From contig CAIYJU010000011.1 of NCBI GenBank assembly GCA_903926565.1, positions 1 through 64,000 of the forward strand: a DNA stretch of 64,000 nucleotides, in the 5' to 3' direction. This stretch comes from an uncultured Bacteroidales bacterium (GTDB lineage Bacteria; Bacteroidota; Bacteroidia; Bacteroidales; FEN-979). Position numbers and translations under genes: made by a program. Under the pieces are notes generated by a model. That model was given only the letters and a program-made list of their open reading frames with translations. It was not told where the DNA came from and did no database searches. Positions 1,750 through 36,274 of this stretch are shown here, in pieces. Within the stretch, counting starts at the first letter, position 1. Every line of letters starts with the position of its first letter.

Positions 1750-3072
1750 TCAACGCCGGAACAACTTCAGAATATCCTGCCCGTTGGCAAAAATCAGGAG
1801 ACCGAAAAGTATGACCATCCCAACGATCTGGGAATATTCCATGAACTTGTCACTGGGTTTGCGCCGGAAAATAATTTCGTACAGCAGGAACATCACGTGT
1901 CCGCCATCGAGTGCCGGAATTGGCAGGACATTCAATATAGCCAGCATGATCGACAGAAAAGCAGTGAGTGACCAGAAAGCACCCCAATCCCAGGTAGATG
2001 GAAAAATGTTTCCAATGGTAATAAATCCGCCAACCGATTCATACGCTTTTTCCTGTGAGAACAAGAGTTTGATAGATTTGATATAATTTCCTGCCTGGTC
2101 AAATGTTTTTACCACTCCGGCCGGGATGGCTGTAATGATACTATAACTCTTTTCCTTGAAAGTGAAATAGTTAGCCGGCCCTTTGGGGAACACTCCAATC
2201 AGGCCTGCGGCAGGAACATTAACCGCCAACCGAACTGTATCTTTACCACGGAGGACCATAACATTCACGGTTTCGTTCTTGTGCTGCTGCACAGTGGCCC
2301 TGAACTGGTCGAAATAGACTAATAGTGAGTCGTTCAATCCAATTATTTTATCATTGATTTTCATCCCTGCTGCTTCAGCCGGTGAGCCAACAGTAAACTT
2401 TCCGGCCTCAAACGGGAATCTCACAGCGATAAAATCGGGCGATTTCTGTTTGATGAGATGGCTGATAAAACCGGCAGGAACAGGCACATCAATCTTTTGG
2501 CTGTCACGAAGCACCTGCACAGACTTAGCCTCTTCAAGAATAATCGTTTTCGGAATGGATGCAAAATCATCTACCTCCTTGTTGTCAACCGAAAGAATGA
2601 AATCACCATTCCGGAGCCCCATTTCAGTCCCCAGAGAATCCACCGAAATTCCATATTTCACTTCGGAAGCAGGAAGATATTGCTCGCCCCAGGCTGCCAG
2701 CATGATGATATAAATTGCAATTGCAAGGAGGATGTTCACCGTCACACCACCCAGCATAACAATCAAACGCTGCCATGCCGGTTTTGAGCGGAGTTCCCAT
2801 GGTTGTGGTGGCAGCTTCATCTGCTCCCTGTCCATCGACTCATCAATCATTCCGGAAATTTTAACATATCCTCCGAGCGGGAGCCAGCCTACGCCATATT
2901 CTGTTTCACCTTTCTTTATTTTAAAAAGAGAAAACCAGGGATCGAAAAAGAGATAGAATTTTTCAACACGGATTTTAAAAACCCGGGCGGCAATAAAGTG
3001 ACCAAACTCGTGAAATATTACAAGAATAGACAAACTGAGTAATAACTGGATAATTTTTATGGCGATTTCCAT
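1750..3072 (-). CDS. rseP: RseP-like site-2 intramembrane metalloprotease
   Basis: The 440-residue protein has the zinc motif HEFGH at residues 21-25 in the first membrane helix, followed by WLPLGGYVKISG, the membrane-associated loop typical of RseP. Two PDZ-like segments occupy the periplasmic middle, one with GSPAEAAGMKINDKIIGLND. The late motif NVLPIPALDGGHVMF supplies the third zinc ligand (Asp in LDG). The family cleaves membrane-anchored anti-sigma factors and remnant signal peptides inside the inner membrane. It lies last in a minus-strand run M23 peptidase-dxr-rseP; dxr and rseP are neighbours in many bacteria. Whether it processes the anti-sigma-like proteins found at 26-30 kb is only a possibility. 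Confidence 0.96.
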   Translation of the reverse strand: MEIAIKIIQLLLSLSILVIFHEFGHFIAARVFKIRVEKFYLFFDPWFSLFKIKKGETEYGVGWLPLGGYVKISGMIDESMDREQMKLPPQPWELRSKPAWQRLIVMLGGVTVNILLAIAIYIIMLAAWGEQYLPASEVKYGISVDSLGTEMGLRNGDFILSVDNKEVDDFASIPKTIILEEAKSVQVLRDSQKIDVPVPAGFISHLIKQKSPDFIAVRFPFEAGKFTVGSPAEAAGMKINDKIIGLNDSLLVYFDQFRATVQQHKNETVNVMVLRGKDTVRLAVNVPAAGLIGVFPKGPANYFTFKEKSYSIITAIPAGVVKTFDQAGNYIKSIKLLFSQEKAYESVGGFITIGNIFPSTWDWGAFWSLTAFLSIMLAILNVLPIPALDGGHVMFLLYEIIFRRKPSDKFMEYSQIVGMVILFGLLIFANGQDILKLFRR

Positions 3073-26505: not shown

Positions 26506-27042
26506 TTATTTGTTTCTGCTTTCCAAAATTCGTTTTATGGAAGATTTTGCCAGGTGCAATTGCGACTTGGAAGTTCCTACTGAAATGCCAAGTAAATTCG
26601 CAATCTCCTGATGTCTGTAATTTTCGATAACGTACATATTGAATACGGTTCTATATCCTATGGGCAGATTCTGAATAATTTCGAGTAATTCCCGGGTCGT
26701 AATGGCAGAAAGAACATCTTCCTGTATGGCTTCTGCGTCGACAGCTTCTGTCAAATCTACTTCGCGGATAAACTTCAGATTTTTCCTGTAGTAATTTATT
26801 GCTGTAGTGACAAAAATACGATGAACCCATCCATCAAAACTGCCCTCAAACTTAAACTGATGAAGGCACTGGAATAGTCGAACAAATCCAAGCTGAAGTA
26901 TATCCTCTGCTTCCATTTCATCTCCACCATACCGAAGACAAATTCCGTACATTTTTGCTGCAAAACGACGATATAGCTGGTATTCAGCGGCAACCTCCTT
27001 TCTCAGGCACCTGGAAATCAGATCATGGTCTTGATCAATCAA
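26506..27042 (-). CDS. ECF-type RNA polymerase sigma factor
   Basis: A 178-residue sigma-70 family protein with region 2 (EAEDILQLGFVRLFQCLHQFKFEGSFDGWVHRIFVTTAINYYRK) and region 4 (LPIGYRTVFNMYVIENYRHQEIANLLGISVGTSKSQLHLAKSSIK). It pairs with the anti-sigma-like gene downstream. The sequence closely follows the second sigma gene at 30.3 kb in the region 2 core, showing the two are paralogues. No promoter is clear in the short gap upstream. Confidence 0.95.
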   Translation of the reverse strand: MIDQDHDLISRCLRKEVAAEYQLYRRFAAKMYGICLRYGGDEMEAEDILQLGFVRLFQCLHQFKFEGSFDGWVHRIFVTTAINYYRKNLKFIREVDLTEAVDAEAIQEDVLSAITTRELLEIIQNLPIGYRTVFNMYVIENYRHQEIANLLGISVGTSKSQLHLAKSSIKRILESRNK

Positions 27043-27133: not shown

Positions 27134-28906
27134 CTAATATTTCAGCAATTTTTTTACCGCGATTTGCGATCCGTCATTCGCATGGATTACCAACAGATAT
27201 AACCCGGCCTTTATGTTTGAAACGGGGATTGCCACCAGGTTCTGATCCTCCCCGCATTCCCTTGCACCAGACCAAACTGTACCCCCGGTCAGGGTCATGA
27301 TCTGAAATTTCAAGGTGGCCGCCCTTTTTAATCCGATAAACAAATTAATCTCCTCCGAAGCCGGGTTGGGGAATAAATTACCAATAATCACCGACCTCAA
27401 AGAAATTTCATCGGCACCTGTCACATCATAGTCAAAAACCTCCAGTTGCAGGCTGTCAGCAAGCGGTGTTGCAGAATCCAGCCAGACAGCTGTGAACCTG
27501 GAGTATTTGCCGGGATATTCAACATAAAGATAGTATGCGCCGAAAGGCAGGTTATTCAATTCAAACCGACCAGTTTTATCTGAAAAAGTAAATTTGAGCG
27601 GGTTCAGCTGTTCACTGAACAACAGGACTTCACCATCAGGAATTTCCTTAAACCAGCCTTTTGGTTGAGCTCTCACAATGGTACCTGTTATCCGCCCTTC
27701 TCCGGTCAGGGAGTCAGTGGTGGGCAGGAGATGAACATCGGAGAGATAGGCATTTGACTCTGATATATCAACAGAACCCGCATCCTTCCAGTGAAGAGAC
27801 TCGCTGAAGTATGTGGGGAAAAAATCCTGATAGTGAACTGACCCTGGTGTAAGCGCAGCCCGGACATTATAAGAGCCATTGAGAATTCGGGGAAATGCGT
27901 AGTAACCCAATTTTGTAAAATAATTGGTATCACGAGGGACCAGCTTTTTACCGTCATACCGGTAAAGGTATGCAACACCAGTGTCGCCGGTTGAAACAGG
28001 ATTATTGATCGGGTACGATCCGGTAAACAGATGTCCCCCGATATCGAAATACCTGGCCGTTTCAATTGTCTGGCAAAGTGTATCGGCACACCTGATTTCA
28101 CCATTCTCCATCCTTTTGATAATCAGACAGGCCTGGTACACGCCGGGAACCTCGAAATGATGTAAAACATCGCGGGTGTAATAAGTTGCCCCATCATCAA
28201 ATGTCCAATGATACTTGTTTGGATCACCCGTGGAAATGTTATTGAATATAAAAGTATTAGGAACCGTGTTCATGGTGTCGAGTTCACAATGAAACAAAGC
28301 ATGGCACTGGCTCCCGGGCACAATCTCCACTGAATCGCATTTGATGTCGTTGCAAACTCCTGCCGAATCGACATTGTAGGCGGTCAGGCAGACCTTGAAT
28401 TTTCCGAAGTATGGAAACGTGTGAACCGGGTTCCGGTCGTCGGAAACATTGCCGTCCCCAAAATCCCAGTGCCATCGGTTGATGTTTCCGCCCGACAGGT
28501 CCTCAAAATGGATTTTTAAACCGTTACCGGGATCGCTTGTGTATTGATAATCGGCTACACAGGCACCTGGTTCATGAACTGTTAGTGAAATACATTGAAC
28601 ATCATGACAAATATTCAAGGGATCTGTGTTTGAGACGGTCAGGCATACAAAATAGGTTCCCCCGGAGGAATAAGTATGTACAGGGTTTTGCATTGTGGCA
28701 CTGGTGCCATCTCCAAAGCTCCATTGCCATAGTGCAATCTGCCCCTGTGACTGATCCTGAAAATGAAAGATCATCGGATTAACAGGGTCAACATTTGCTG
28801 AAAAAGCGGCATCACAGGAGGTGGTGTTCTCCATACCATCGGTATGTTGTCCCGATGCCTGGCCAAAAACCACCCATAATATTACGATCAGCAGGTTTGT
28901 TCTCAT
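27134..28906 (-). CDS. PKD-domain protein with T9SS C-terminal sorting domain
   Basis: A 590-residue exported protein. After a signal peptide come three PKD domains, each with a W-x-F-G/D-DG core (WQWSFGDGTSAT; WHWDFGDGNVSD; YHWTFDDGATYY) and a Cys cluster near the end (CHDVQC, CNDIKC, CADTLC). Two carboxypeptidase-regulatory-like beta domains follow (GSYNVRAAL; SDKTGRFELNNLPFGAYYLYVEY). The last 80 residues form a T9SS sorting domain with GNLFPNPASEEINLFI and SNIKAGLYLLVIH. It overlaps the 470-residue protein by 4 bases, tying this cargo to the sigma operon. The function is likely surface binding or display. Confidence 0.9.
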   Translation of the reverse strand: MRTNLLIVILWVVFGQASGQHTDGMENTTSCDAAFSANVDPVNPMIFHFQDQSQGQIALWQWSFGDGTSATMQNPVHTYSSGGTYFVCLTVSNTDPLNICHDVQCISLTVHEPGACVADYQYTSDPGNGLKIHFEDLSGGNINRWHWDFGDGNVSDDRNPVHTFPYFGKFKVCLTAYNVDSAGVCNDIKCDSVEIVPGSQCHALFHCELDTMNTVPNTFIFNNISTGDPNKYHWTFDDGATYYTRDVLHHFEVPGVYQACLIIKRMENGEIRCADTLCQTIETARYFDIGGHLFTGSYPINNPVSTGDTGVAYLYRYDGKKLVPRDTNYFTKLGYYAFPRILNGSYNVRAALTPGSVHYQDFFPTYFSESLHWKDAGSVDISESNAYLSDVHLLPTTDSLTGEGRITGTIVRAQPKGWFKEIPDGEVLLFSEQLNPLKFTFSDKTGRFELNNLPFGAYYLYVEYPGKYSRFTAVWLDSATPLADSLQLEVFDYDVTGADEISLRSVIIGNLFPNPASEEINLFIGLKRAATLKFQIMTLTGGTVWSGARECGEDQNLVAIPVSNIKAGLYLLVIHANDGSQIAVKKLLKY

Positions 28907-30315
28907 GGGCTTGTCGTTTTTTGTCCGAAGTTGAACTGAAGTCCAACACCCAGGCCAATCGCCCAGGGTGCCTTGAATTTGACATTTTCCCCGGTGGCAA
29001 CGGGATTCAAATAGTATTTGAACGATGGGTCAAGGTATAAACTTAATTTTTTATTCAACCTCATCTCAAAGTACAGGTTTGTCCATATTTGCCAGTTGGT
29101 CTGAACCCGCGACGGCGTTTGATTCTCCATGGAGACCACCCTGCCATTGGAATAGACCATGTCAGGTTCGGGAGTGTGGGAGCCCAGAAGCACGGAGATT
29201 GCGGGGCCAGCCTGAAAGGTCAGGCTGACCTTATTGGACACAAACAACTGGTAGCCAAGCAATAATGGAACCTGCAAATAGGAATACCTGTTTTTCATGT
29301 AGGGGTTGTCAAGGTGGTATAAACTATCATAAACATTAACCGTTTGCGTATTGTATGTAATTTCGTTGTTGTTCCCGATGGAGTAAGAAGTTACATTGTT
29401 GTAATATCCCACACTGTCGTTACTGATATACTCCACATGGTATTTGCCTTCATCAAAAACGTAGCCCAGTCCGATCCCTGACGCAACGGAAAAGCGGGAA
29501 ATATGATAAGTTATCCCTGCATTTACCCAATAATTAGCCTTTGTCAGCGCTGCCGGTTCTGAATAAACCGCTAACTCAGGCACCAGCCCTAAATTGATGG
29601 AGAAAAACTGAGCCGCTTCCGGTTTTGTTTTCCTGACTTTTACGACCCCGGTCGGATTGCTGAACGTGATAATTGTGTCAGACCCCGGAAAAACTGGAAG
29701 CAAGGCTGTTTCAATTGGAACAAGTGAATTTATCTCTGCCAAAGAAACGGGCTGAGGCACCTGAATTGTTGAAACAGATTTTTCATTGAAGCTGTGGATC
29801 CCCTGAAGATCCTCTTTTGCAAACTCTGCACCATGTACTCTTTGAAAATTTGCAGCCTGAACGATTGGTTTGTTGCTTACATCCGATTCTTTTGTTTCAT
29901 GCAAACCGCCAGCCTCCGGGCTATCCGCCTGATGTGAAGCGGTCATTTTCTTGTTTCTGTCCTGACTGGGATTGAGGAGTGCGCCTGCAGTGGGTTTAAC
30001 ATGAGGGCTCGCGGCAGTAAAACTTACCTGTGCGGATTTTCCAACAGGGTGGGATGCTGTTTTATCCGGTGAGTCAACATGAAACCCAACATAAAGTCCT
30101 GAGACAATGGCCAGTAAACCAATGGTTGCAGTAATCCATATTTTCGGGGAAAGATTGGTAAAGTCGAAACGAAGAAATTCCTTCCATAACAACTTTCGGC
30201 TGATGTCTTTCCAGATGCCGGGCTTGGGCTCAACACGATGACCCGACATGGTCCCGCGTAAAAACTGGTCGGCCCCGCCATCCTCAAAAGCCTTAAAATC
30301 TATTTTTTCACTCAT
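28903..30315 (-). CDS. Inner-membrane-anchored anti-sigma-like/outer-membrane-barrel-like fusion
   Basis: A 470-residue protein with an unusual layout. Residues 1-55 are soluble and contain EPKPGIWKDISRKL, like the anti-sigma-like protein at 25.9 kb. A membrane helix follows (KIWITATIGLLAIVSGLYVGF), then about 150 residues of low-complexity polar linker, and from about residue 240 a set of alternating aromatic beta strands (FSINLGLVPELAVY, YWVNAGITYHISRFSVASGIGLGYVF, LSLYLDPSFKYYL, WAIGLGVGLQFNFG) resembling outer-membrane beta-barrel domains. It overlaps the upstream sigma gene by 8 bases and the PKD gene by 4, so the three form one operon. An anti-sigma that reaches the envelope is one reading; its topology needs proof. 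Confidence 0.75.
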   Translation of the reverse strand: MSEKIDFKAFEDGGADQFLRGTMSGHRVEPKPGIWKDISRKLLWKEFLRFDFTNLSPKIWITATIGLLAIVSGLYVGFHVDSPDKTASHPVGKSAQVSFTAASPHVKPTAGALLNPSQDRNKKMTASHQADSPEAGGLHETKESDVSNKPIVQAANFQRVHGAEFAKEDLQGIHSFNEKSVSTIQVPQPVSLAEINSLVPIETALLPVFPGSDTIITFSNPTGVVKVRKTKPEAAQFFSINLGLVPELAVYSEPAALTKANYWVNAGITYHISRFSVASGIGLGYVFDEGKYHVEYISNDSVGYYNNVTSYSIGNNNEITYNTQTVNVYDSLYHLDNPYMKNRYSYLQVPLLLGYQLFVSNKVSLTFQAGPAISVLLGSHTPEPDMVYSNGRVVSMENQTPSRVQTNWQIWTNLYFEMRLNKKLSLYLDPSFKYYLNPVATGENVKFKAPWAIGLGVGLQFNFGQKTTSP

Positions 30316-30880
30316 TGACCGGTGATATATTTTTCATAAGATTGTGTTCTACCAACTTTTTACGCAACATCCTGCGCGCTTTAAGCAATTGGGTTTTCGA
30401 TGTATTTTCGGAGATGCTGAGCTCCCGTGATATCTCTTTATGGCTATATTCTTCAAACACATAAAGGTTAAAAACCATGCGGTAACCGGGAGGCAGCATT
30501 TGAATAAGTGCAGTCAGCTTGTCGGCGGATATTGGCGCATGAACACCAGACTGATCCTCGTTTTCCATGATTTCTGTTTCATTGATGCTCTCAATATCTT
30601 CAAGAAATGGCAACTTTCTGTTTTTCCGGTAATAATTAAGGGCATGATTGATCATGATTCGTTTCATCCATCCTTCAAACGATCCCTCCTTCCTGTACGA
30701 ACTGATGTTCTGGAATATTTTAAGGAACGCTTCCTGAAGAATGTCTTCAGCCTCATCATGATTTTGGGCATAGCGCAGGCATATCGCCAACATTACCGCA
30801 GCAGATTTACGGTAAAGGGCGCTCTGGGCACTGCGCTTTCCGGCTACGCAACCCTCGATTATGGAATCGTCAATGAGCAT
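30308..30880 (-). CDS. ECF-type RNA polymerase sigma factor
   Basis: A 190-residue sigma factor with region 2 (DEAEDILQEAFLKIFQNISSYRKEGSFEGWMKRIMINHALNYYRK) and region 4 (LPPGYRMVFNLYVFEEYSHKEISRELSISENTSKTQLLKARRML). It heads an operon with the barrel-fusion protein and the PKD T9SS cargo. It is a paralogue of the sigma at 26.5 kb, sharing EGSFxGWxxRI and NYYRKN. Confidence 0.95.
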   Translation of the reverse strand: MLIDDSIIEGCVAGKRSAQSALYRKSAAVMLAICLRYAQNHDEAEDILQEAFLKIFQNISSYRKEGSFEGWMKRIMINHALNYYRKNRKLPFLEDIESINETEIMENEDQSGVHAPISADKLTALIQMLPPGYRMVFNLYVFEEYSHKEISRELSISENTSKTQLLKARRMLRKKLVEHNLMKNISPVNE

Positions 30881-30997
30881 CCAATAGTAACTATTAAGCA
30901 GACGTAAATCAAGAAATTAGGTTGCCTGATGGGTGTAAAAATACGAAAAAAGCGGACAGATGGAGAGGCCGGCAAAGGAAACCTGAGTGTTCCCGGC

Positions 30998-31621
30998 TTA
31001 TGGGAGTGTGGCTTTGAATTTGGCGAAGTTGTTCTCAAAAAAAGTGCGGCCTTCATGGCTGAGTATTCCCTGAAGATGGTACACGAATACTTCATGAAAC
31101 ATTGTAAGAGAAGCAAGTTCCTCGTATGTGAACATGTCATTTTCAATTAAATTCTCACTTCTGAAAACATGTAGTTTAGATATGATTTCAGAATTGAGTT
31201 CTTTGCGATAGAGTCCTTCTTTTTTTCCCTGGTCCAAATTGTTTGTAACCGATTTCAACATTCGCTCGCGTCGCACTTCCCGTATCTTCAGAAAAAGGCC
31301 CGGGTAATATTTCCTGATGTCATATTCCATGGAAGGATTAAATTCAATCAACATGGAATTTATTACCTTGTAAAACTCAAACAACGCTTCAATTGCGTTG
31401 AGTTTCTTATTTTCAATGCTGGCCAGAAATCCGCATCGGTGGTCATGCTCATACAGCAGTACCTGCTTAACCAGGTCCTCCTTATCACTGAAGTATTCGT
31501 AAATGGTTTTCTTTGAAATACCCAGATGACTCGCAACATCATCCATTGTCACGCTTTTGATTCCGTAACGGTGGTAGAGTTTTCCAACTTGCTCAAGAAT
31601 GCTGATTGCTTTATGATCCAT
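30998..31621 (-). CDS. TetR/AcrR-family transcriptional regulator
   Basis: A 207-residue regulator with an N-terminal helix-turn-helix (HRYGIKSVTMDDVASHLGISKKTIYEYFSDKEDLVKQVL). It is divergent from the RND adaptor gene, 132 bases away, and so is probably its repressor. The Bacteroidota -7 box for this gene ends 4 bases before its ATG. The ligand domain is not recognisable. Confidence 0.93.
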   Translation of the reverse strand: MDHKAISILEQVGKLYHRYGIKSVTMDDVASHLGISKKTIYEYFSDKEDLVKQVLLYEHDHRCGFLASIENKKLNAIEALFEFYKVINSMLIEFNPSMEYDIRKYYPGLFLKIREVRRERMLKSVTNNLDQGKKEGLYRKELNSEIISKLHVFRSENLIENDMFTYEELASLTMFHEVFVYHLQGILSHEGRTFFENNFAKFKATLP

Positions 31622-31753: not shown

Positions 31754-32872
31754 ATGAAACACATTTTTCTTGTTACGGGTATTTTATTAATTCTTGCCGG
31801 CTGCGGCGGCAAGGGACTGGATAAAAAAGCCCGCCTGGACCAGCTTAAAAAAGAACACGACAAGCTGACTGTAGAGATCATGACACTTGAAAAAGAGATT
31901 GCTCCTGCCTCTTCCGTTTCTTCTACCCTTGTAAAAGTCGAACTTGTCACAAAAAAACCATTTGACCACTATGTTGAGGTTCAGGGGAGAATTGACGGCA
32001 ATGAGAACATTGCCGTCAACCCGCGAAACCAGGGCGGCATGGTCACCAGGATTCTTGTCCACCAAGGCGATGCAGTTACCAGGGGCCAGGTTCTTGCAGA
32101 ACTTGATGCCGATGTTTTAAAACAGCAACTGACTGATCTGAAAAACAAACTGGCGTTCGTCACTGATCTCTATAACCGTCAGAAAACCCTTTGGGATCAA
32201 AAGATAGGATCAGAAATGCAATACCTGAAGGCAAAAAACGATATGGAGTCAGTCCAGAACGGCATAGCCACACTGGAAGAGCAGATACAAATGTCGGTCA
32301 TCATGTCACCCATCAACGGCACTGTTGAGGATATCCCGATAAAAGTCGGGCAGCTGGCCTCACCGGCCTCACCGATTCCTGCATTCAGGATTGTCAACTT
32401 TTCAAAGGCCAAAGCACTTGCAGATGTTGGTGAAGCCTATTCATCACAGATTAAAACAGGGGACCAGGTGAAAATTTTCCTGCCCGACCTCAACAGGGAA
32501 TTTACCCAGCAAATCACATTTTCAAGCAAATATATAAATCCAACCAACCGTACGTTCCTCGTTGAAGCCGCATTGCCCGGTTCCGATATTGTTTTTCGTG
32601 CCAACATGATTGCGGTTCTGCGGATCAAGGATTATTCAAATCCTGCAACCGTTGCAATACCTCAGAACTATATTCAGAATTCCAGGGATGACGGCCAGTT
32701 TGTGTTTGTGGCTGTTGAAGAAAACGGAAAAAAAATTGCACGGAAACGTACCATTACATCTGGTGTTTCTTATAATGGTCTCACAGAAATTGTCAAAGGG
32801 CTCAGTGAAGGTGATAAAATCGTTACCGCAGGGTACAAAGATCTTTACAATGGCCAGCCCATCGACTTCTAA
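31754..32872 (+). CDS. RND efflux periplasmic adaptor lipoprotein
   Basis: A 372-residue membrane-fusion protein. Lipobox LAGC (Cys17), then a predicted coiled coil (LDQLKKEHDKLTVEIMTLEKEI) not usual at this spot in AcrA, a lipoyl/barrel-sandwich half (GGMVTRILVHQGDAVTRGQVLAELD), a helical hairpin (about residues 115-175) and the returning lipoyl half (MSVIMSPINGTVEDIPIKVGQLAS). The beta-barrel and membrane-proximal domains end the protein. It bridges the inner-membrane pump and TolC. The RND pump gene follows after 12 bases. Confidence 0.95.
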   Translation: MKHIFLVTGILLILAGCGGKGLDKKARLDQLKKEHDKLTVEIMTLEKEIAPASSVSSTLVKVELVTKKPFDHYVEVQGRIDGNENIAVNPRNQGGMVTRILVHQGDAVTRGQVLAELDADVLKQQLTDLKNKLAFVTDLYNRQKTLWDQKIGSEMQYLKAKNDMESVQNGIATLEEQIQMSVIMSPINGTVEDIPIKVGQLASPASPIPAFRIVNFSKAKALADVGEAYSSQIKTGDQVKIFLPDLNREFTQQITFSSKYINPTNRTFLVEAALPGSDIVFRANMIAVLRIKDYSNPATVAIPQNYIQNSRDDGQFVFVAVEENGKKIARKRTITSGVSYNGLTEIVKGLSEGDKIVTAGYKDLYNGQPIDF

Positions 32873-32884
32873 TCTGAACCGGAA

Positions 32885-35800
32885 ATGAAAGAAAAACAAC
32901 ATAAACTTAAAGAGTTTTTTGCAACAAGCTGGTCTATTGACAACAAGGTGAGCATCTACGTGCTTACAGTCATTATTACCACCCTCGGGCTCTTATCATA
33001 TTTCAGCATACCGAAGGAACAGTTTCCCGAAATTGTAATTCCAACAATCCTTGTAAACACGGTCTATCCGGGAACTTCCCCCGAGGACATGGAAAACCTG
33101 GTGACCCGCCCGATTGAAAAACAGTGCAAATCGCTTGCTGATGTAAAAAAGATTACCAGTAATTCTATCCAGGATTTTTCCACCATTGTTGTTGAGTTTA
33201 ATCCCGGCATAGAAGTATCAGAAGCCAAACAGCGGGTGCGGGATGCTGTTGACAAGGCAAAGGCCAACCTGCCGAACAACCTTCCGAAAGACCCTGATAT
33301 CAAAGAATTCGATATCGCTGAAATCCCCATCATGAACATCAACCTTGCCGGTGATTATGATCTGCAGAGGCTGAAAAAATATGCGGAAGATGCCCAGGAC
33401 AAAATTGAAACGCTGAAGGAGATTACCCGGGTTGACATCGTTGGCGCCCTGGAACGTGAAATACAGATCGACGTGGATATGTATAAAATGCAGGCAGCCA
33501 GTGTCTCATTTCGCGACATTGAATCGGCCGTATCGGCAGAAAATGTAACTGTCTCTGCAGGTACGATCACCTCATTCGGAACAAAATACACCATTCGGCT
33601 GGCGGGCCAGTTCAAATCGCCCGATCAGATTAAAAACATCATGTTGAAATCGGCCAGCGGTGCCATCGTATATATTCAGGACGTTGCCGATGTCAAGGAT
33701 TCATTCAAGGAGCAGGAGAGTTTCGCCAGGCTTGACGGGAAGAATGTCATTACGCTCAATGTCATCAAAAAAAGTGGTGAAAATCTGATCAATGCCTCTG
33801 ACAAAATAAAGGAGATCATGGATTTGATGAAGAAGAACTCATATCCGCCAGATCTGAATGTACATATCACCGGCGATCAGTCGCGTTTTACAAAAAGCAC
33901 CCTGGAAGAGCTGAACAATACGATCATCATCGGGTTTATCATGGTGATTGTTGTGCTGATGTTCTTTATGGGCTTTAACAATGCCTTTTTTGTCGCATTG
34001 TCTGTTCCTCTCTCCATGTTTGTTGCCTACCTGATCATGCCCAGCCTTGGTTTCACCATGAACATGATTGTGATGTTCGGATTCATTTTTGCGCTCGGGA
34101 TCATCGTAGATGATGCGATTGTGGTAATTGAGAACACCCATCGGCTGCACCGGGATCAACCGGATATTGTCAAGGCGGCGAAAAACGCCGCAGGTGAAGT
34201 CTTTCTCCCCATCCTTTCAGGAACGCTCACGACACTGGCACCTTTCTTCCCGCTGGCATTCTGGCCCGGAATTGTCGGGAAATTCATGCACTACATGCCT
34301 GTCACCCTGATTCTGACCCTGTTTGCCTCCCTCTTCGTGGCCTACATTATCAACCCGGTGTTCGCAGTCACCTTCATGAAGCACGAATATGATGAAGTAG
34401 AACACAAAGTCAACCGCAAAAGATTACTTATCACCAGCGGGCTGTTTCTGCTACTTGCCATATTTTCGTATGCAGGCGGAGGCTTTGCCTTCGGGAATAT
34501 CTTCATTTTTATCATGCTCCTGAATATTTTCTACAGGCTCGTGCTTAAAAGTGCCATTATCAGCTTCCAGACAGTTGCCTGGCCATGGGTGCTTAACATG
34601 TATGAACGAACACTGTACTTTGCACTGAAAGGCCGCCATCCATGGTATATCCTCATCGGAGTCGTCTCATTGCTGTTTTTCAGCTTCTGGCTAATTGGCG
34701 TGGTTAAACCACCGGTGCTGTTCTTCCCGAATAACAATCCGACCTTTGTGAATGTCTTTATCAAAATGCCGGAAGGAACAGATCAGAATGTAACAGATTC
34801 CGTAACCACACTTGTTGAAAAACGGGTGGCCGGTGTGCTTGGGGAAAAGAATCCTGTTGTTGAGTCAATCATCACCAATGTTGGATTCGGAGCAGGAGAT
34901 AACATGTTCGACCGCTCCGTATCTTCCAACAAAGGGAAGATTACTATCAATTTCACTGAGAGCAAGTTCCGTAATGGTGTTTCAACACAGGCCATTATGG
35001 ATAACATCAGGGCCAATATCAAAAACATCCCCGGTGCTACCATCAGTGTGGAAAAAAACAAGATGGGACCTCCTACAGGCAAGCCGATCAGTATCGAAAT
35101 CAACGGTGAAAACATGGAGGACCTGATTGCCACATCCATTCAGTTCAAATCCTATCTTGACTCCTTAAGAATCCCGGGGATTGAACAGCTTAAATCGGAT
35201 TTTGACATGAACAAGCCCGAAATCATCATCGACATTGACCGGGTTCGTGCAAACCGTGAGGGGTTATCTCTTGGCCAAATCGGCCTTGAACTGCGTACCG
35301 CCATTTTCGGAAAAGAGATCTCAAAATACAAGGAAGACGAAGATGAGTATCCCATTCAACTGAGGTATTCGGAAAAAGAGCGTACCAACATCAATCAGAT
35401 CATCAATGCCAAAATCACCTACCGGGATATGAATTCAGGCCAGTTAAGGCAGATTCCGATCTCTTCTGTTGCCTCCATTCATTATAAGGATACATATGGC
35501 GGGGTCAAACGTAAAAATCTCAAAAGGGTGATAACACTGTCTTCTGAGGTTCTCTCCGGATACACCGCCAACGAGGTTGTTGCCATGATTAACCGGTCGT
35601 TGACAGGTTATAAACTGCCCAAAGGAGTGGAAATCAGCCTCACCGGCGAAAAAGAAGACCAGGCAGAAACAATGGCCTTCCTGATAAAAGCGATGATGAT
35701 TGCCATTGGATTGATCTTCTTTATCCTGATTACTCAGTTTGGCTCACTCAGCAAATCATTCATTATTTTAAGCGAAGTCATCTTTAGTGTGATCGGCGTA

Positions 35801-36274
35801 CTGCTTGGCATTGCCATATTCGGCATGTCGATAAGTGTGATCATGACAGGACTCGGTGTTGTAGCCCTGGGAGGTATCGTAGTGCGGAACGGGATCCTGA
35901 TTGTTGAATTCGGTGATGAACTTAAATCACGCGGGGTAAAGACGAAGCAGGCCATTATCCAGGCAGGAAAAACCAGGATTACTCCTGTTGTACTTACTGC
36001 AACCGCCACAATGCTTGGCCTGGTGCCGCTTGCAGTAGGTATGAATATCAACTTTGTAACCTTGTTTACTGAACTGAATCCCCACCTCTATTTTGGAGGA
36101 GACAATGTCGCTTTCTGGGGTCCGTTGTCGTGGACCATCATTTTCGGATTGAGTTTCGCAACATTCCTCACGCTGGTATTCGTGCCGGCGATGGTGCTGA
36201 TTGATGCGCAGATGATTGCCGGGATCAGGCGGAGAAGGTCAAACCGTATTGCAAGGAAACGTGCAAAATTGTAA
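32885..36274 (+). CDS. RND-family multidrug efflux transporter (AcrB-like)
   Basis: A 1129-residue inner-membrane pump, longer than the usual 1030-1060. The N-terminal membrane helix is followed by porter subdomain PGTSPEDMENLVTRPIEKQ. The proton-relay region in helix 4 is GIIVDDAIVVIENTHRL with the paired Asp. In helix 10 GGIVVRNGILIVEF has Arg at the site of the AcrB relay Lys, next to the conserved Asn. A long loop at about residues 490-580 adds extra hydrophobic segments. The C-terminus is a short basic tail (RRRRSNRIARKRAKL). It converges with the TolC gene, leaving 29 bases. Confidence 0.96.
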   Translation: MKEKQHKLKEFFATSWSIDNKVSIYVLTVIITTLGLLSYFSIPKEQFPEIVIPTILVNTVYPGTSPEDMENLVTRPIEKQCKSLADVKKITSNSIQDFSTIVVEFNPGIEVSEAKQRVRDAVDKAKANLPNNLPKDPDIKEFDIAEIPIMNINLAGDYDLQRLKKYAEDAQDKIETLKEITRVDIVGALEREIQIDVDMYKMQAASVSFRDIESAVSAENVTVSAGTITSFGTKYTIRLAGQFKSPDQIKNIMLKSASGAIVYIQDVADVKDSFKEQESFARLDGKNVITLNVIKKSGENLINASDKIKEIMDLMKKNSYPPDLNVHITGDQSRFTKSTLEELNNTIIIGFIMVIVVLMFFMGFNNAFFVALSVPLSMFVAYLIMPSLGFTMNMIVMFGFIFALGIIVDDAIVVIENTHRLHRDQPDIVKAAKNAAGEVFLPILSGTLTTLAPFFPLAFWPGIVGKFMHYMPVTLILTLFASLFVAYIINPVFAVTFMKHEYDEVEHKVNRKRLLITSGLFLLLAIFSYAGGGFAFGNIFIFIMLLNIFYRLVLKSAIISFQTVAWPWVLNMYERTLYFALKGRHPWYILIGVVSLLFFSFWLIGVVKPPVLFFPNNNPTFVNVFIKMPEGTDQNVTDSVTTLVEKRVAGVLGEKNPVVESIITNVGFGAGDNMFDRSVSSNKGKITINFTESKFRNGVSTQAIMDNIRANIKNIPGATISVEKNKMGPPTGKPISIEINGENMEDLIATSIQFKSYLDSLRIPGIEQLKSDFDMNKPEIIIDIDRVRANREGLSLGQIGLELRTAIFGKEISKYKEDEDEYPIQLRYSEKERTNINQIINAKITYRDMNSGQLRQIPISSVASIHYKDTYGGVKRKNLKRVITLSSEVLSGYTANEVVAMINRSLTGYKLPKGVEISLTGEKEDQAETMAFLIKAMMIAIGLIFFILITQFGSLSKSFIILSEVIFSVIGVLLGIAIFGMSISVIMTGLGVVALGGIVVRNGILIVEFGDELKSRGVKTKQAIIQAGKTRITPVVLTATATMLGLVPLAVGMNINFVTLFTELNPHLYFGGDNVAFWGPLSWTIIFGLSFATFLTLVFVPAMVLIDAQMIAGIRRRRSNRIARKRAKL

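Follow-up and report, generated by a model that had tools for sequence, protein, structure and literature searches.

A probable Dma-type anti-sigma factor predicted to cross both membranes, and its secreted PKD-domain neighbour, in an uncultured Bacteroidales bacterium

Can a single polypeptide reach from the outer membrane to a sigma factor at the inner membrane, and if it does, what might its outer end be sensing? The question is raised by one open reading frame in a stretch of 64,000 nucleotides from an uncultured Bacteroidales bacterium (the window), for which a preliminary description had proposed a cytoplasmic anti-sigma-like segment, a membrane helix, a linker and barrel-like strands, joined in a chain that would carry signals across both membranes without a separate receptor. 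FecR and RseA are, as is predicted for the protein considered here, membrane-bound inhibitors of ECF sigma factors, but they differ from it in ending in the periplasm and depending on separate outer-membrane receptors or sensors. An anti-sigma layout spanning two membranes has already been published and is known from gut Bacteroides, the Dma family of B. thetaiotaomicron being reportedly the subject of a 2024 PNAS paper by Pardue. We conclude that the protein in the window is very probably an anti-sigma factor of Dma type, acting on the ECF sigma factor whose gene lies directly upstream, where “Dma-type” is used by architecture and gene order and sets the protein beside Dma1 and Dma2 of B. thetaiotaomicron by description only.

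Predicted architecture of the 470-residue protein

The features of the locus and the evidence on which each was delimited are collected in Table 1. The cytoplasmic head contains two conserved helices (residues 14-23 and 32-49 in the AlphaFold2 model) and an alignment consensus around DxLxRxTxxGHRVEPxPxLWKGISRKLL, and it matched no named family model in Pfam or NCBIfam; the AlphaFold2 run used a 33-sequence alignment only and modelled this part at modest confidence. The membrane helix claimed earlier is borne out by the agreement between the predicted helix (57-77) and the hydropathy peak, and the linker, put at about 150 residues, is indeed 157 residues long here (median 157 and range 117-212 among homologues). 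Most of this tether (residues 79-213) is predicted to be disordered, with pLDDT <50, and a short conserved hairpin (215-228) lies at its barrel-proximal end.

The barrel-like strands correspond to an 8-stranded barrel predicted with confidence, its eight long strands running from 236 to 463 with pLDDT mostly >90. The Pfam family OMP_b-brl_2 matches residues 318-428 (E=1.8e-7, above the curated cut-off) as well as 27 of 27 aligned homologues, and the best folds returned by Foldseek against the PDB were outer-membrane barrels, namely OmpA, Ail, NspA (target TM-score 0.76), OmpX and OmpW; a sequence search for solved relatives gave nothing convincing. The modelled barrel has an even number of strands, with its two ends on the periplasmic side, as a tether arriving from the inner membrane requires, and the last barrel strand is the end of the chain, Pfam detecting no C-terminal peptidoglycan-binding OmpA domain after it. 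Conservation, expressed as JSD, is 0.57 in the head, 0.44 in the membrane helix, 0.26 in the tether and about 0.6 in the strands, and the long loop 2 of the barrel, at 0.573, is conserved to strand level. Pfam, AlphaFold2 and the homologues together confirm the observation of an inner-membrane helix and a barrel-like domain joined in one frame, and model and sequence support the view of a single chain predicted to cross both membranes and to restrain a sigma factor.

Table 1. Features of the locus, with positions in the window
Feature	Position	Strand	Basis or remark
tetR gene	30998..31621	-	
ECF-type promoter-like site GGCAAC-N17-GTCT	30900..30926	-	19 bases before sigA start codon
Cognate ECF sigma gene, sigA	30308..30880	-	Overlaps Dma start by 8 bases
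Dma-type anti-sigma gene, 470 aa, ATG start	28903..30315	-	ORF, Pfam, alignment, AlphaFold2, Foldseek
Conserved cytoplasmic head, presumed sigma-binding, residues 1-56	30148..30315	-	Alignment, conservation, related short anti-sigma head
Inner-membrane helix, residues 57-78	30082..30147	-	AlphaFold2 helix 57-77, coinciding hydropathy peak
Tether, S/P/A/T-rich, residues 79-235	29611..30081	-	AlphaFold2, conservation
8-stranded outer-membrane barrel, OmpA/NspA/OmpX type, residues 236-463	28927..29610	-	Pfam, AlphaFold2, Foldseek
Long extracellular loop 2 of barrel, residues 290-340	29296..29448	-	AlphaFold2, conservation
PKD-domain protein gene, type IX secretion tail, presumed co-regulated cargo	27134..28906	-	Start codon overlaps Dma stop
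Second ECF sigma gene of the row, sigB	26506..27042	-	
Short anti-sigma gene, 189 aa	25912..26481	-	Dma-like head, membrane helix, cargo-like beta-sandwich; without tether, without barrel
RseP-type site-2 protease gene (Peptidase_M50), candidate for last cut	1801..3045	-	

Gene order, homologues and a promoter-like site

The gene row reads tetR, sigA, Dma, PKD protein, sigB and short anti-sigma factor, all on the minus strand, and the sigA product matches the general ECF model, with a match to TIGR02985 that falls below the cut-off. The tetR gene, which precedes sigA in almost all loci of the family, is here transcribed away from an RND-type efflux gene pair (31754-36274, plus strand). Homologues of the Dma-type protein occur in 46 of 61 related genomes and, order-wide, in 108 of 149 genomes, a count that takes in head-only and barrel-only matches; full-length homologues of the same layout across family and order rule out a chance reading frame. 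An ECF sigma gene lies directly upstream at every locus considered, whether related (36/36), among the best order-wide loci (29/29) or remote and lower-scoring (20/20), and a PKD-type gene lies directly downstream at 35 of the 36 related loci and at 27 of the 29 best order-wide ones. Of the downstream proteins, all nine sampled and 13 of 15 aligned have a type IX secretion tail; the genome of the window holds at least 150 such tails. This constant pairing, within the subfamily, of a sigma-Dma module with a secreted PKD surface protein is what is new here.

Farther away the pattern changes. Among the 20 lower-scoring loci a barrel was recognisable in 10 and the PKD protein model matched instead in 8, and a cargo-like neighbour accompanied only one to three of the 10 remote barrel-type relatives; the head is thus combined with different outer parts, and the cargo link is particular to the window's subfamily. 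A cargo link as a rule for all barrel-type anti-sigma factors was rejected on the last of these counts. Anti-sigma factors that share this head are, judged from their sequences, a modular family.

Several individual loci deserve mention in their own right. At L122, L123, L125-L129 and L133 the same head follows an ECF sigma gene and a match to the PKD protein model replaces the barrel. The same genome as the window has, on contig C191, a second complete sigma-Dma-PKD module (L031), whose Dma protein of about 500 aa is 21% identical over the alignment. Loci L024 and L055, both from one MAG, have head and barrel in separate frames, through a frameshift or sequencing error, and L045, on a contig labelled Alphaproteobacteria, carries the operon in its usual Bacteroidales form; it is nearly the same as L046 and likely comes from a mislabelled MAG.

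The promoter-like pattern GGCAAC-N17-GTCT is present in 36 of 48 sigA-type loci and in none of 34 sigB-type loci, counts that cover loci with enough upstream sequence and that come from related loci, so that the events are not independent. The site is conserved far more strongly than the sequence around it, and its spacer varies freely among distant loci. A further copy precedes the second cargo gene of L043, L054 and L057, and L092 has one ahead of its cargo gene. Genome-wide, the pattern was found 9 times against 8 for the reversed control, which is no enrichment; a wide regulon was rejected on this comparison, and with the genome count at background the operon itself is the only supported target. 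Single matches to the pattern stand 66-240 bases before gene starts at L114, L115 and L118, within a total count at background, and in a few sigB-type genes, as in L031, the site takes variant forms, among them TGCAACC and GGCAACC, and its -10-like part differs.

A sister anti-sigma factor with a cargo-like domain

The short anti-sigma factor at the end of the row has a head that matches the Dma head in profile comparison (95.6%, 1.2e-8), followed by a membrane helix (54-75) and then by a beta-sandwich. The best fold matches of this sandwich include pilin CnaB-like and transthyretin-like domains, and it shares homology with the middle domain of the PKD protein from the same operon (97.4%, 1.5e-11); a model built on the sandwich matches this middle domain in the cargo proteins of nearly all loci. 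This cargo domain in a second anti-sigma factor suggests, without showing, that the secreted protein is the signal of the barrel.

How the short protein may have arisen can be read in part from the sigma tree, in which sigB genes with short partners form one clade (97/82), with the partnerless L039 and L040 included; in the sister of that clade (96/88), and in the neighbours beyond it, the partner is a full-length barrel protein. Read most simply, tether and barrel were lost once and the cargo domain was gained. When the short protein was used as the query, the only full-length proteins to match were the sigB-linked ones in L061-L063, and domain scores were higher for sigB-linked cargo (median 34.5 bits) than for sigA-linked cargo (24.1 bits; p=9e-4, computed on non-independent sequences). 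The domain tree indicates one origin (100/99), its columns being too few to place the source, and the PKD-bearing anti-sigma factors (L122 and others) were rejected as that source, having no match to the domain model. At L039 (11405-11950) and L040 (7456-8004) the sigB-type genes have no recognisable anti-sigma gene behind them and are apparent orphans.

Mechanism and candidate signals

Published relatives give these predictions a context. Dma1 and Dma2 of B. thetaiotaomicron are anti-sigma factors by genetic evidence, and their published description gives Dma2 an anti-sigma domain, a membrane helix, a disordered tether and a barrel, places it next to a putative ECF21 sigma factor and leaves open the substrate that it senses (PMC13088901). 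The protein in the window resembles Dma2 in having a head, membrane helix, long disordered tether and C-terminal barrel in order and an adjoining ECF sigma gene; where the Dma2 operon has BT_1557, its row holds a PKD protein with a type IX tail and a second sigma/anti-sigma pair. M0N98_03760 of P. vulgatus, also an anti-sigma factor by genetic evidence and of the same layout, belongs to a pair that has been likened to an oxidative-stress ECF sigma/anti-sigma pair of B. fragilis and whose response to an antibacterial toxin is likely mediated by envelope stress (PMC9308784). Like the protein here it is predicted to span the periplasm and to end in an outer-membrane barrel, and it is encoded downstream of its own sigma gene; for M0N98_03760 only, envelope stress from the toxin is the likely trigger and a longer O-antigen is one output. 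The conserved helical head and these genetically defined relatives of the same layout support the anti-sigma-like segment of the preliminary description. A likeness of another kind is offered by PorA-PorXY-SigP of Porphyromonas gingivalis, in which an ECF sigma pathway is influenced from the cell surface by a protein bearing a T9SS C-terminal domain, but that route is a two-component system and the one here is a barrel-bearing anti-sigma factor.

By analogy with such relatives, the protein would restrain its sigma factor, and we infer that release comes about by cutting of the chain. The head would hold the sigma factor at the inner membrane; a barrel that is bound, misassembled or disturbed would pass a change along the tether or expose it there; and the chain would then be cut, with RseP, encoded by the only RseP-type Peptidase_M50 gene found in the genome, as the candidate protease. 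The freed sigma factor would fire promoters of the GGCAAC-N17-GTCT type, that of its own operon first, and so yield the type IX-secreted PKD-domain surface protein. The direct two-membrane signalling proposed earlier finds support in the layout and in the overlap with the sigma gene; its further element, that no separate receptor chain takes part, is less secure, the secreted neighbour leaving room for a second surface chain.

Alternative arrangements of the chain fare poorly. That the C-terminal part folds as a soluble periplasmic beta domain, the outcome against which structure prediction had been proposed as a check, is very improbable: the neighbouring anti-sigma factor of the row does have a soluble beta-sandwich, but the domain here has eight confident long strands, an OMP_b-brl_2 match shared by all aligned homologues and outer-membrane barrels at the head of the Foldseek list, and the soluble fold was rejected on the AlphaFold2 structure and Foldseek. 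Scarcely any credence can be given to FecR-type cell-surface signalling, where the signal would reach a periplasmic anti-sigma domain from a separate TonB-dependent receptor. An ECF sigma factor is paired with a membrane-bound regulator, as that scheme has it, but regulator and barrel form one polypeptide, and searches with Pfam and NCBIfam matched neither a FecR domain in the 470-residue protein nor a TonB-dependent receptor among the six genes searched, so that the scheme was rejected for this gene row. A chain made whole and cut early, leaving barrel and head to work separately in the outer and the inner membrane, is a better but still improbable reading, to which a long, disordered and unconserved tether, easily cut, lends something; yet head and barrel are fused in one frame in the homologues, the MAG with L024 and L055 excepted, and fusion would hardly be maintained in a chain that is always cut.

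As to the signal, published work on proteins of the same layout proposes glycan (Dma) or envelope stress (P. vulgatus) (PMC13088901, PMC9308784). That the protein is an outer-membrane stress sensor, in which failure of barrel folding or damage to the envelope opens the tether to proteases and frees the sigma factor, has in our estimate somewhat less than an even chance. The P. vulgatus relative answers an antibacterial toxin, with induced genes that overlap the BamA-inhibitor set (PMC9308784), and the RseP gene lies within the same window; on the other side, loop 2 is conserved like the strands, for which a pure folding sensor would have no use, and the gene row encodes a surface protein, not folding factors. 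The reading that we prefer, though we give it clearly less than an even chance, is that in this subfamily the barrel, by its conserved loop 2, may sense the type IX-secreted PKD protein of its own operon, or the export state of that protein, in a two-membrane feedback loop of which the short anti-sigma factor would be a trace. Counted in favour of cargo sensing are the downstream gene at 35 of 36 loci, the type IX tails, the cargo-homologous domain in the second anti-sigma factor and the example of PorA in P. gingivalis, T9SS-tailed itself and feeding a sigma pathway; counted against it are the confinement of the cargo link to this subfamily and the other signals proposed in print. A ligand is favoured by the conservation of loop 2 and by the linked cargo gene, envelope stress by the P. 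vulgatus data.

The neighbour gene, conserved as it is, and the sister anti-sigma factor that lacks a barrel provide a concrete candidate signal, and the locus extends the Dma design to uncultured environmental Bacteroidales.
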